NCBI GenBank assembly: GCA_030427405.1
Contig: JAUHXK010000012.1
Coordinates: 1-64,000, forward strand
Source: Alphaproteobacteria bacterium
GTDB taxonomy: Bacteria; Pseudomonadota; Alphaproteobacteria; Rhodobacterales; Rhodobacteraceae
DNA length: 64,000 nt
Direction of reading: 5' to 3'
Shown here: positions 58,964-64,000 of the stretch, piece after piece
Numbering within the stretch: position 1 is the stretch's first letter
How the letters are laid out: the number at the start of each line of letters is the position of its first letter
Notes under the pieces: generated by a model
Told to the model about the DNA's origin: nothing
Seen by the model: only the letters and a program-made list of their open reading frames with translations
Databases searched by the model: none
Position numbers and translations under genes: made by a program

Positions 58964-59929
58964 TCAGAAGTCGACCTCGATCGCGATCCCTTGCTGGACG
59001 GCCAGATCGACCACTGCGCTTGCAACAGCCAGATCCTGAAGCCCGACGCCGGTGCCATCGAACAGGGTCACCTCATCATCTGAGCTGCGCCCGCGATGGG
59101 TGCCGTTGATGACCTCGCCAATCTGCCGGATATCGCTTTGCCTTTTCAGACCCGCAGCAATGGCGTGCTGGCTTTCGCCCAATGTGACCGCCTGCGCGAC
59201 CTCGTCTGTAAAGACGCTGGCCCGCGCGACCAGGTCGGCTGCGACCTCTTGCTTGCCCACAGTATCGGTGCCCATGCACGCGATATGGGTTCCGTCCGCG
59301 ACGTGCCCTGACATCAGGATGGGCGCAAAGGAAGAGGTGATCGTGATAATCACGTCCGCCTCGACCAGGCCGGGCAGATCAACCGCTTCGAAAGGCAAGC
59401 CACCCTCGGTTGCGACCTTTTCGATGTTGGGCAACATCTCGGGGTGCAGGTTCCAGCCGATGACCTTGTCGAACTTGCGCTGTTCCAGGGCGGCGCGAAG
59501 TTGGAACGTCGCCTGATGCCCGGCACCGACCATGCCGATCACCTTGGCATCTTTGCGTGCAAGGTGGTTGATCGACACTGACGAGGCTGCCGCCGTGCGC
59601 AGCGCCGTCAAAAGGTTGCCCCCCACAAGGGCCTTGACCCGACCTGTATCGGGATCAAACAGAAACACCGTTGACTGGTGATTGATCAGCCCGTGGGTTT
59701 CGAGATTATTCGGCCAATACCCCCCGGCCTTGAGGCCCAGCGTCATACCCGCGCGATCAAACCCGCCCTTGAACCCATAAAGCGCATCGGCATGGCCGAT
59801 GGCCTCGCGCACCACTGGAAAGTTACAGGCATCACCTGCCGCCATTGCGGCGAACACCTGTTCAACTGCCTCATAGCTTTCCTTACGCACCATGAGGGCG
59901 CCGATTTCCTTTTCAGGAACAATGATCAT
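58964..59929 (-). CDS. bhcD: Iminosuccinate reductase (ornithine cyclodeaminase family)
   Basis: MGLKAGGYWPNNL-type OCD signature, GMVGAGHQATFQLRAAL; fourth gene of bhc-type operon. Confidence 0.88.
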   Translation of the reverse strand: MIIVPEKEIGALMVRKESYEAVEQVFAAMAAGDACNFPVVREAIGHADALYGFKGGFDRAGMTLGLKAGGYWPNNLETHGLINHQSTVFLFDPDTGRVKALVGGNLLTALRTAAASSVSINHLARKDAKVIGMVGAGHQATFQLRAALEQRKFDKVIGWNLHPEMLPNIEKVATEGGLPFEAVDLPGLVEADVIITITSSFAPILMSGHVADGTHIACMGTDTVGKQEVAADLVARASVFTDEVAQAVTLGESQHAIAAGLKRQSDIRQIGEVINGTHRGRSSDDEVTLFDGTGVGLQDLAVASAVVDLAVQQGIAIEVDF

Positions 59930-59960
59930 CGCGTGTGTCTTTCTTTGTGATGGCCGTAAC

Positions 59961-59990
59961 AGGGCGGCGCAAAACGCCCGCCCTTGTTTT
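59961..59990. other. Intercistronic inverted repeat bhcC/bhcD
   Basis: agggcgg-cgcaaaacgc-ccgccctt; T-tract only on + strand side. Confidence 0.55.
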
Positions 59991-60000
59991 CATCTAAGGA

Positions 60001-61164
60001 TCAATAGGCCTTGCCACGTGCCGAGACCGGCCACAGGGTTTCGACCTTTCCGCCCCGTACGCCCACATACCAATCGTGGATATTGCAGGTGGGGTCACAA
60101 TGCCCGGGCACCAGCCGCAGCTTGTCATTGACCTTGAGCACGCCGTCGGGGTCACCGATCACGCCGTGTTCATCCGAACATTTCAGGTATTCCACGTCGT
60201 TCCGTCCAAAGATGAAGGGCAGGCCGCTATCGATCGATTGCGCCTTGAGGCCCGCGTCGCAAATGGCCGTGTCGGCCTTGGCGTGGCTCATGACGCTGGT
60301 CAGAATGAACAGCGCGTTTTCCCATTCGCCCTGGTCGATGCGCTTGCCGTCTTTGTCCAGAATCCGGCCATAATCGGCGTCCATAAAGGCATAGGATCCG
60401 CATTGCAGTTCGTTATAGACGCCCGAGTTGCTCTCGAAGTAATACGAGCCTGTGCCGCCGCCCGAGACCAGCTCGCATGCGATCCCTTCGGCCTTCAACC
60501 CCTCAACGGCGTCTTTGACCATGGCGATGGCCGTATCCAGCTTTTCCTTGCGCGCCGCGTAGCTGTCGAGATGCTGCATCGCGCCCTGATAGGCCTGAAT
60601 TCCGGTGAATTTCAGGTTCCGAGCATCCTCTACCGCCTTGGCAATCTCGATGACGGCAGGGGTCGTCGCTACGCCGCAGCGGCCAGCGCCGCAGTCGATC
60701 TCGACCAAGACCTCCAATTCGGTGCCGTGTTTCAATGCTGCGGCGGACAGATCGGCCACGTTGTCGATATCGTCGACGCAGACAATGGTGCGCGCGCCCA
60801 GCTTGGGCAGGCGGGCAAGCCGGTCGATCTTGACCGGATCGCGGACCTGGTTTGAAACCAGAATATCCTTGATGCCGCCGCGGGCAAAGACTTCGGCCTC
60901 GGACACTTTTTGACAGCAGACGCCGTTCGCGCCGCCCAGCTTTTCCTGCAGCTTGGCCACGTCTACCGATTTGTGCATCTTGCCATGCACCCGGTGACGC
61001 ATCCCGTGCGCCTTGGCATAATCGCCCATCTTCCTGATGTTGCGTTCCAGCGCATCCAGATCAAGGATCAGGCAAGGTGTCTGGATTTCGCTTTCATCCA
61101 TGCCGATGGCGGCAGGGATGTCATAGCCGACTTCGCGTTCGTCGAAATGTGCAGGTTGGTTCAT
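60001..61164 (-). CDS. bhcC: beta-Hydroxyaspartate aldolase (DSD1/D-threonine aldolase-like PLP enzyme)
   Basis: ETPxxxLDLDALERNIRKM-like IQTPCLILDLDALERNIRKMGDYAKAHG, VEIDCGAGRCGV, VSGGGTGSY. Confidence 0.9.
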   Translation of the reverse strand: MNQPAHFDEREVGYDIPAAIGMDESEIQTPCLILDLDALERNIRKMGDYAKAHGMRHRVHGKMHKSVDVAKLQEKLGGANGVCCQKVSEAEVFARGGIKDILVSNQVRDPVKIDRLARLPKLGARTIVCVDDIDNVADLSAAALKHGTELEVLVEIDCGAGRCGVATTPAVIEIAKAVEDARNLKFTGIQAYQGAMQHLDSYAARKEKLDTAIAMVKDAVEGLKAEGIACELVSGGGTGSYYFESNSGVYNELQCGSYAFMDADYGRILDKDGKRIDQGEWENALFILTSVMSHAKADTAICDAGLKAQSIDSGLPFIFGRNDVEYLKCSDEHGVIGDPDGVLKVNDKLRLVPGHCDPTCNIHDWYVGVRGGKVETLWPVSARGKAY

Positions 61165-61175
61165 CTTTGTCCTCC

Positions 61176-62147
61176 TTACCCTTCAAGCCAGGGCAGTTTG
61201 TCCAGATCTACATTGCCGCCCGTGATGATCACGCCAATCCGCTTGCCGCTGAAGACCTTGGGGTTCTTGAGGATCGTGGCCAGCGGCACTGCCGAGGATG
61301 GCTCCATCACCACCCGCAGGTATTTCCAGGTCAGTTTCATCGCGTCGATGATCTCTTGCTCGGACGCGGTGAAGATGTCGGTCACGTTGCGTGAAACAAA
61401 GTGCCAGGTGTTTTCCTTGAGCGGAACCAAAAGCCCGTCGGCGATTGTTTTGGGGGCGTCATCAGCAATGATGTGACCCGCCCTGAACGAGCGATAAGCA
61501 TCATCGGCCTGTTCCGGCTCGGCCGCATAGATCGCCGTCTGCGGCGCAAGGGCCGAAACGGTCAGGCAGGTGCCGGACACCATTCCACCGCCGCCAATGG
61601 GCGCAATCACGGCGTCCACGCCACCTGTTTGCTCCAGCAGCTCAGCCGAGCAGGTCGCCTGACCGGCTATCACGCGGGGGTCGTTGTAGGGATGTACAAA
61701 CGCGCCGCCGGTGCGGGCCTGCACCTTGGCAAAGGTGGCCTCTCGTGATGAGGTGGACGGCTCACATTCGGTGATCGTGCCGCCAAAGCGCCGCACCGCA
61801 TCCTTTTTGGCCTGCGGGGCCGTGCGGGGCATGACCACGTGGCATGGGATGCCGCGCCGCCCGGCGGCATAGGACAAAGACAGCGCGTGGTTGCCGCTGG
61901 AATGGGTGCAGACACCCTTTTTGGCCTTGTCATCGCTCAAGCCGAATACGGCGTTGCACGCCCCGCGCACCTTGAATGCGCCCGCTTCCTGAAAATTCTC
62001 ACATTTGAAGAACAGCTGGGCGCCCGTCTGTTCGTTCAGGACCTCCGAGGTCATGACCGGCGTGCGACGGATATAAGGTTTGATCCGTTCATGCGCCGTG
62101 TACATGTCGTCGATCGTCAGGTCAGCGGTAGGGATATGATCCAACAT
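61176..62147 (-). CDS. bhcB: beta-Hydroxyaspartate dehydratase (Thr/Ser dehydratase family)
   Basis: FFKCENFQEAGAFKVRGACNAV, HSSGNHALSLSYAA, PIGGGGMVSGTCL. Confidence 0.9.
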   Translation of the reverse strand: MLDHIPTADLTIDDMYTAHERIKPYIRRTPVMTSEVLNEQTGAQLFFKCENFQEAGAFKVRGACNAVFGLSDDKAKKGVCTHSSGNHALSLSYAAGRRGIPCHVVMPRTAPQAKKDAVRRFGGTITECEPSTSSREATFAKVQARTGGAFVHPYNDPRVIAGQATCSAELLEQTGGVDAVIAPIGGGGMVSGTCLTVSALAPQTAIYAAEPEQADDAYRSFRAGHIIADDAPKTIADGLLVPLKENTWHFVSRNVTDIFTASEQEIIDAMKLTWKYLRVVMEPSSAVPLATILKNPKVFSGKRIGVIITGGNVDLDKLPWLEG

Positions 62148-62157
62148 CAGACCCTCC

Positions 62158-63348
62158 TCAAGCCGCGGCTTTGGCGTGTCCCGAAGGACCGGTGCGGAAA
62201 TATTCCTGTGCGGCGGCCACACCGCTGCCCAGCTTGATCGGATAGTTCAGGTCTGCCATCGCCATCTCAATGGTGCCGAGGCCAGACAGAACCATGACAT
62301 CCGTCAGACTGCCCAGATGACCAATCCGAAAGGCCTTGCCGTTCAATTCACCCAAACCGATGCCAAAGGACACGCCATATGCGTTGAAGGCATGATCGGT
62401 CAAAGCGTTACTGTCATAACCGTCCGGAACGTAGATGGCGCTGACCGTATCCGAGTAGAGATCGGGCGACTGCGCAACCAGGCCAAGCCCCCAGGCCTTG
62501 ACCGCGCGGCGCACGCCTTCGGCCAGGCGGAAGTGGCGGGCATAGACAGCGTCCAGGCCTTCCTCGAACAGCATGTTCAGGCTTTCGCGCATTCCGTAGA
62601 TCAACTGCAACGGAGGGGTATAGGGAAAGCCGCCGGATGCATTTGCCGCCATCATGTCGCGGAAATCAAAGAATGTTCTGGGCAGTTTGGCCGTTTCCAT
62701 CGCCCTTTGTGCCTTGGGGCTGACGCACAGGATTGCCATGCCGGTGGCCAGCATGAACCCCTTTTGCGACCCCGACACCGCGATATCAACACCCCAATGG
62801 TCGAATTCAAATGGCATCGACGCCAATGAGCTTACGCAATCCACAAACATCATCGCAGGATGGCGGGCCGTATCCATTGCGCGGCGCACTGCCGCGATGT
62901 CCGACCGCACCCCGGTCGCGGTTTCGTTATGGGTGATCAGCACGGCCTTGATTTGATGGCTGGTATCTTTCGATAGCACCTCCTGGAACCGGTCGGCAGG
63001 TGCTCCGGTGCCCCAGGGGCAATCGATGACCTGAACGTCCAGCCCGTGCCGCTTGCACAGGTCGATCCATCGATGGCTGAAGACACCGTACCGTGCGACC
63101 AGAACCGTGTCGCCGGGGCTGAGGGTGTTGGTGACGGCCGCCTCCCACCCGCCGGTGCCGCTGGCGGGGAAAACCATGACCTGGGCCTTGTCGGTGCGGA
63201 AAACCTTTTTTGCGCCGTCCAGTGCCGGGGCAAAAACCTCGACAAATTCCGGGGCGCGGTGATCTTGTGTCTGGACCTGCATGGCCAGCCGCAGCCGGTC
63301 GGGAATGTTCGTCGGTCCGGGGATGAAAACCGGGTTTTGGTTAGACAT
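62158..63348 (-). CDS. bhcA: Aspartate-glyoxylate aminotransferase (class V, serine-glyoxylate aminotransferase-like)
   Basis: FIPGPTNIPDRLRLAMQVQTQDHRAPEF, FPASGTGGWEAAVTNTLSPGD, VSGSQKGFMLATGMA. Confidence 0.92.
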   Translation of the reverse strand: MSNQNPVFIPGPTNIPDRLRLAMQVQTQDHRAPEFVEVFAPALDGAKKVFRTDKAQVMVFPASGTGGWEAAVTNTLSPGDTVLVARYGVFSHRWIDLCKRHGLDVQVIDCPWGTGAPADRFQEVLSKDTSHQIKAVLITHNETATGVRSDIAAVRRAMDTARHPAMMFVDCVSSLASMPFEFDHWGVDIAVSGSQKGFMLATGMAILCVSPKAQRAMETAKLPRTFFDFRDMMAANASGGFPYTPPLQLIYGMRESLNMLFEEGLDAVYARHFRLAEGVRRAVKAWGLGLVAQSPDLYSDTVSAIYVPDGYDSNALTDHAFNAYGVSFGIGLGELNGKAFRIGHLGSLTDVMVLSGLGTIEMAMADLNYPIKLGSGVAAAQEYFRTGPSGHAKAAA

Positions 63349-63392
63349 CTTCAATCCTCCAATCTCAGCAAAACTGTGACGGGGAGGGAAGT

Positions 63393-63501
63393 ATTTTGCA
63401 ATTTTCTTGAAAAATATTTCCATTTTAGAAATTTTTTGCATAAGTATTTGTTAAGGAAGCAATTTGGGTTTCTCATTTGCCGGGTGCGGGAATTCGCGCC
63501 C
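63393..63501. promoter_or_regulatory. bhcA-bhcR divergent control region
   Basis: AT-rich tract with TTTTGCA repeats (63394, 63434), near-palindrome GAAAAATATTTC (63409-63420), imperfect palindrome centred on GAATTC (63490-63495). Confidence 0.5.
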
Positions 63502-63549
63502 GAAAAAAATGCCCAACAGCCCGTCACGATCTGCAAGAAGGCACCCGGG

Positions 63550-64000
63550 ATGGAGACACAAAAAAGACCGCGTGGCCGACCCAAATCCCTGTTCAAGGAA
63601 AGCTCGGCTGGAACGATGCAGTCACTGGATCGCGCCTTGGGTGTCCTAAGCGCAATTGCCCGGCTTGAACATGTGGCGCTGAGCGATCTTGCGCGTGAAA
63701 TCGACGTGCCGACCGCGACGACGCATCGTATCCTGACGACGCTGCAAAAGCACGGCTTTGTAAGCTTTGACGACGAACGCCAGGAATGGATGATCGGGAT
63801 CGAGGCCTACAGGACCGGTGCGGCGTTCCTGCGGCGCAACAGCGTGCTGGAAATCGGACGTCCCATCCTGCGGCGTCTGATGCAGGACAGTGGCGAAACA
63901 GCCAACCTTGCGGTTCCGGACGGGGCTCAGGTCGTGTTTGTTGGTCAGGTCGAAACCCCGAACCCGATCAGAGCCTTTTTCCCGCCTGGCGCCCGAACGC
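63550..64000 (+). CDS. bhcR: IclR family transcriptional regulator, 3'-truncated by window end
   Basis: METQKRPRGRPKSLFKESSAGTMQSLDRALGVLSAIARLEHVALSDLAREIDVPTATTHRILTTLQKHGFVSFDDERQEW...; divergent from bhcABCD. Confidence 0.88.
   Translation, partial: METQKRPRGRPKSLFKESSAGTMQSLDRALGVLSAIARLEHVALSDLAREIDVPTATTHRILTTLQKHGFVSFDDERQEWMIGIEAYRTGAAFLRRNSVLEIGRPILRRLMQDSGETANLAVPDGAQVVFVGQVETPNPIRAFFPPGART

Follow-up and report, generated by a model that had tools for sequence, protein, structure and literature searches.

The bhc locus and the identity of its enzymes

The window (the whole 64,000-nt stretch of contig JAUHXK010000012.1 that was analysed, from a Ruegeria-like marine bacterium of the Rhodobacteraceae) ends in a cluster of genes that includes: (i) bhcA, bhcB, bhcC and bhcD, in this order on the minus strand, and (ii) bhcR, a divergently transcribed gene for an IclR-type regulator (Table 1). 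The locus is read here as an operon that encodes every enzyme of the beta-hydroxyaspartate cycle (BHAC) and is accompanied by a dedicated glyoxylate-responsive regulator; its bhcD allele would have been replaced from a second lineage of the cluster. This reading is given a probability of about 0.96. The five genes were recognized as bhcABCD and bhcR in an initial annotation made from open reading frames, and this identification is now supported by NCBIfam equivalog models, solved structures, phylogeny and synteny. The frames are open at the positions first described, with short gaps of 10 nt (bhcA-bhcB), 11 nt (bhcB-bhcC) and 71 nt (bhcC-bhcD). Only bhcR is cut by the window edge; its full-length frame (272 aa) was read from the contig beyond that edge (L007:7550-8368).

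All four enzymes exceed the curated equivalog cut-offs in the comparison that the initial annotation had proposed. BhcA scores 720.8 bits with NF045640 (cut-off 650), BhcB 579 bits with NF045641 (cut-off 550), BhcC 766.3 bits with NF045642 (cut-off 690) and BhcD 575.4 bits with NF045643 (cut-off 500). The remaining matching NCBIfam models fall far under their own cut-offs, including the runner-up for BhcB, threo-3-hydroxy-L-aspartate ammonia-lyase (339.8 bits against 452). In comparisons with solved structures, the top match of BhcC is D-3-hydroxyaspartate aldolase (6qkb), over the full length (713.8 bits, 80.1% identity), followed by a D-threonine aldolase at 313.7 bits; that of BhcD is iminosuccinate reductase (6rqa), with 443.1 bits and 67.3% identity, followed by a structure at 140.3 bits. 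Both 6qkb and 6rqa are enzymes of Paracoccus denitrificans. BhcA groups with annotated BhcA in phylogenetic trees and falls within the lineage I clade (support 99-100; see below).

The folds named in the initial annotation were recovered as Pfam Aminotran_5, PALP, Ala_racemase_N with D-ser_dehydrat, and OCD_Mu_crystall. By themselves these folds are general enough to suit four unrelated amino-acid enzymes (a serine-glyoxylate aminotransferase, a threonine/serine dehydratase, a D-threonine aldolase and an ornithine cyclodeaminase-like protein) that lie side by side by chance. This explanation is considered vanishingly improbable, as the BHAC equivalog cut-offs are exceeded while the general families score far under theirs, and as the same four genes recur in the same order with a divergent regulator. 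The A-B-C-D order is found in 94 of 100 BhcC-holding loci (some of them redundant), and a divergent bhcR is within reach in 74 of them; thus, the gene arrangement is not a matter of chance. Generic amino-acid catabolism is ruled out at the sequence level by the curated model scores. The expectation that generic annotation would call these genes unrelated was not borne out, since NCBI models assign a name to each of the four enzymes, and bhcRABCD is the label that clusters of this kind receive in RefSeq.

Table 1. Features of the bhc locus, with positions as numbered in the window.
Feature	Position	Strand	Description
bhcD	58964..59929	-	iminosuccinate reductase, 321 aa; lineage II allele within an otherwise lineage I cluster
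bhcC	60001..61164	-	3-hydroxy-D-aspartate (BHA) aldolase, 387 aa
bhcB	61176..62147	-	beta-hydroxyaspartate dehydratase, 323 aa; ATG start chosen
bhcA	62158..63348	-	L-aspartate--glyoxylate aminotransferase, 396 aa
bhcA-bhcR intergenic region	63349..63549		sequence and alignment of 22 clusters; divergent promoters expected
candidate BhcR operator TGAAAAATATTTCCA	63408..63422		about 60 nt upstream of bhcA
bhcR	63550..64000	+	IclR-type regulator, 272 aa; runs past the window edge to contig position 64368

The proposed cycle, its regulator and the glycolate context

The order of reactions in the BHAC is known from other work (PMC8307300, PMC11323563), and the cycle of P. denitrificans has been described together with its regulation (PMC11323563). 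Enzyme activities, flux, induction and an activating role of BhcR are proposed for the window cluster by analogy with that organism. BhcA would transfer the amino group of aspartate to glyoxylate, yielding glycine and oxaloacetate; BhcC would condense the glycine with a second glyoxylate to form (2R,3S)-beta-hydroxyaspartate; BhcB would dehydrate this intermediate to iminosuccinate; and BhcD would use NAD(P)H to regenerate aspartate from iminosuccinate. The net balance would be the conversion of two glyoxylate to one oxaloacetate with no loss of CO2.

The best match of the regulator is the BhcR model (NF045644), while IclR is next at 220.7 bits. When the ligand positions are taken from a table in PMC11323563, the protein is found to retain the residues that contact the glyoxylate oxygens (G160, D212, S239 and S241). 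Other pocket positions are occupied by Pro (143), Ala (146), Thr (154), Met (220) and Thr (161), and the protein has no hydrophobic patch that would accommodate the pyruvate methyl group, a lack that it shares with the published BhcR (PMC11323563). The window regulator is, judged from its model scores and phylogenetic placement, a diverged BhcR of lineage I.

The most conserved block of the bhcA-bhcR intergenic region, as aligned for 22 clusters at the same chromosomal site, contains an IclR-type palindrome, TGAAAAATATTTCCA, that is similar to the IclR box of Escherichia coli, TGGAAATNATTTCCA (PMC8222616). The palindrome occurs once in the window, where 0.12 occurrences are expected at up to one mismatch. 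At the same tolerance, the pattern is noted in 26 of 31 lineage I clusters compared to 2 of 1550 shuffled regions, and it is conserved among those lineage I clusters in which BhcR is present. BhcR is predicted to bind this candidate operator; a build-up of glyoxylate would then act through BhcR at the bhcA promoter to activate the operon.

Glyoxylate would be supplied at least by the oxidation of glycolate by GlcDEF. Glycolate oxidase genes, for which the initial annotation suggested a search elsewhere in the genome, are clustered as glcD-E-F on another contig (C5, ~349.9-353.8 kb), with GlcF at 466.8 bits (cut-off 333) and GlcE at 284.5 bits (cut-off 284). Malate synthase G is present. Searches of the genome found no isocitrate lyase, and nothing above the cut-off for glyoxylate carboligase (top match 323.9 bits against 711.2). 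With glcDEF present, no glyoxylate carboligase above its cut-off and an assembly rated 99.6% complete, the genome can encode the full route from glycolate via glyoxylate to oxaloacetate, as described for P. denitrificans, while the glycerate route, an alternative pathway for glyoxylate, appears to be missing.

Paracoccus denitrificans shares with the window organism the four enzymes, a divergent IclR-type regulator and glcDEF in the genome. In P. denitrificans a repressor gene, glcR, adjoins glcDEF; by contrast, no glcR-like gene was seen among the frames of at least 200 aa that adjoin glcDEF in the window genome. This genome also carries a BhcA paralogue (L125, G000:C15:16481-17638) of 36% identity with one in-frame TAG stop, which is a pseudogene or an assembly error.

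Two bhc lineages and the composition of the window cluster

In trees of 78-80 rows, BhcA (support 99) and BhcD (support 100) show one and the same division into two lineages. Ruegeria sp. R14_0, Mameliella, Roseovarius mucosus and Marinobacterium are among the members of lineage I; among those of lineage II are Paracoccus, Leisingera, Shimia, the megaplasmid of Ruegeria pomeroyi and the solved 6rqa. A paper on two bhc lineages was not found in a short literature search. BhcA and BhcD conflict in lineage in only three members of this set: the window, L037 and strain KLH11 (L075). In all three, BhcA and BhcR are of lineage I and BhcD is of lineage II. In a smaller and more careful tree, BhcD is placed with lineage II at a support of 100/100, and a tree in which the three BhcD are forced into lineage I is rejected (log-likelihood 32 lower; approximately unbiased (AU) test, p-AU 0.0037).

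Comparison at the DNA level locates the change. Both flanks of the window cluster are of lineage I type. The DNA around suhB is 79-94% identical to lineage I Ruegeria and roughly 40% identical to lineage II clusters, which are located elsewhere, and the flanks together with bhcR-bhcA are closest to lineage I Ruegeria. This order reverses solely within bhcD, where identity is 57-71% to lineage I and 65-80% to lineage II. Either form is found in the genus at this chromosomal site: the lineage II bhcD is present in 8 of 22 clusters and the lineage I form in the other 14. The eight mosaic BhcD proteins form one clade (support 100), and L141 and L161, which group as sisters when their flanking genes are compared (support 100), carry different bhcD alleles. 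The bhcD of the window is, on the evidence of these trees and alignments, a one-gene, in-place homologous replacement from lineage II that is common to eight related genomes. The simplest reading is that bhcD was imported once and may then have been spread or lost through homologous recombination within the genus.

The named clusters differ from the window cluster along the same lines. Ruegeria sp. R14_0 and related strains (L030 and L157; lineage I) share the chromosomal site and flanks and are 86% (BhcA), 88.5% (BhcB), 91.5% (BhcC) and 81.5% (BhcR) identical to the window proteins; however, their BhcD is of lineage I and only 65% identical. The megaplasmid cluster of R. pomeroyi DSS-3 (lineage II, annotated bhcRABCD) has the same genes and order, with identities of 81.4% (BhcC), 78.9% (BhcB), 61.6% (BhcA) and 43.3% (BhcR), but is plasmid-borne and has other neighbours. 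P. denitrificans is likewise assigned to lineage II, as opposed to the lineage I BhcA and BhcR of the window, on the basis of 6rqa and of the closely related P. versutus (L127; BhcD 94.7% identical to 6rqa). The latter was used as a stand-in for P. denitrificans BhcA, BhcB and BhcR; its BhcA and BhcR are 63.4% and 42.6% identical to those of the window. KLH11, L037 and L134 share the window's mosaic of lineage I BhcR and BhcA with lineage II BhcD at the same chromosomal site. Unlike the window organism, KLH11 has an additional copy on another scaffold (L073:5005-8255), a stretch of ~3.25 kb that spans most of bhcB together with bhcC and bhcD, is 99.3% identical to L075 and is without bhcA and bhcR.

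Several points weigh against the reading of the locus as a complete cycle with a replaced bhcD. The reverse constraint, on BhcA, is only narrowly rejected (p-AU 0.0455), the groups compared in the AU tests were named after the tree had been seen, which weakens the p values, and the lineages are not cleanly separated in the trees of BhcB and BhcC, which argue neither for nor against a mosaic. The full-length BhcR scores 335.5 bits with NF045644, just below the cut-off of 350. GlcD, although best matched by the GlcD model, scores 531.9 bits, below the E. coli-type cut-off of 897. The window BhcA and BhcR are ~61-64% and ~43-45% identical, respectively, to lineage II versions (e.g., P. versutus and P. 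homiensis), and biochemical work on lineage I enzymes was not found in the literature.

Two other explanations draw on these points. Uneven rates or a tree artefact, rather than gene replacement, might underlie the conflict between BhcA and BhcD, as the BhcA test is marginal, the groups are post hoc and only three columns are diagnostic of the BhcD lineages. This is judged highly improbable, given the strong rejection of a lineage I placement for BhcD, the drop in identity to lineage I in bhcD alone while both flanks stay high, the occurrence of both alleles at this site within the genus, even between the close relatives L141 and L161, and the lineage II state of the window BhcD in all three diagnostic columns. 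Alternatively, a lineage I BhcA might use another amino donor (e.g., serine), making the cluster a variant cycle, in line with its divergence from lineage II BhcA and with its best solved relative, a serine--glyoxylate aminotransferase at 45% identity. Such a variant is considered very unlikely, as BhcA scores above the BhcA cut-off (720.8 against 650 bits) and is accompanied, in all full clusters seen, by the three remaining BHAC genes, whose products regenerate aspartate.

Replacement of bhcD from lineage II stands as the preferred reading; the acquired allele is most likely isofunctional, and the swap is probably without functional effect. A cofactor switch was considered as the cause of the swap but finds no support, as the loop that follows the Rossmann motif (IGWN.HPE versus VAWNPHP) is similar in kind in both lineages. 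It is unlikely, if slightly less so than either alternative above, that lineage II bhcD was acquired for changed kinetics, cofactor use or enzyme fit, such that a single-gene reductase swap would represent adaptive tuning of the pathway in marine Rhodobacterales, or that the amino donor of lineage I BhcA is a different one.

Distribution of the cluster and its meaning

The locus is a well-supported member of a known, widespread and published pathway cluster. BhcC scores above the cut-off in 36 of the 37 genus genomes; the remaining one, G033, has no BhcC match at all, owing to either natural loss or a gap in the assembly. Clusters of this kind occur across the Rhodobacterales, in some Hyphomicrobiales and in the gammaproteobacterium Marinobacterium, and on many plasmids. 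Four Marinobacterium loci (L055, L088, L093 and L109) carry a lineage I bhcABCD with a divergent regulator that is only ~30% identical, and the IclR-type operator pattern was not found in these four clusters. The Marinobacterium clusters are likely to reflect horizontal transfer with a different regulator.

Variations on the cluster are noted in other genomes. In Ruegeria sediminis CAU 1488 (L040:7232-8677), a 481-aa membrane protein, by eye similar to NCS1-type nucleobase/hydantoin transporters, is encoded between bhcC and bhcD; a link to glyoxylate derived from purine or allantoin breakdown is possible. On plasmid pRM41A of Sinorhizobium meliloti Rm41 (L129:4990-5804), the bhcR located upstream of bhcA can be matched only in two pieces that lie in different frames, is unannotated and is probably a broken regulator gene; bhcABCD is intact, and glcF and two FAD-linked oxidase genes adjoin. 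An apparent duplication in Leisingera aquaemixtae CECT 8399 (L042 and L043, 99.99% identical over 13 kb and ~108.7 kb apart on a 127-kb contig) was rejected, as the spacing and identity fit a circular plasmid of ~108.7 kb that was assembled past its end.

The pathway and its importance in marine systems are already published. The new point is small: bhc clusters recombine gene by gene, and part of the genus carries a terminal reductase gene that was exchanged at its original position. As bhcD was replaced in place, the lineage assigned to a cluster from one gene can mislead. For the window organism, the BHAC looks like the main net route from glyoxylate alone, because glyoxylate carboligase was not detected, and this Ruegeria-like marine bacterium probably assimilates algal glycolate without loss of CO2.

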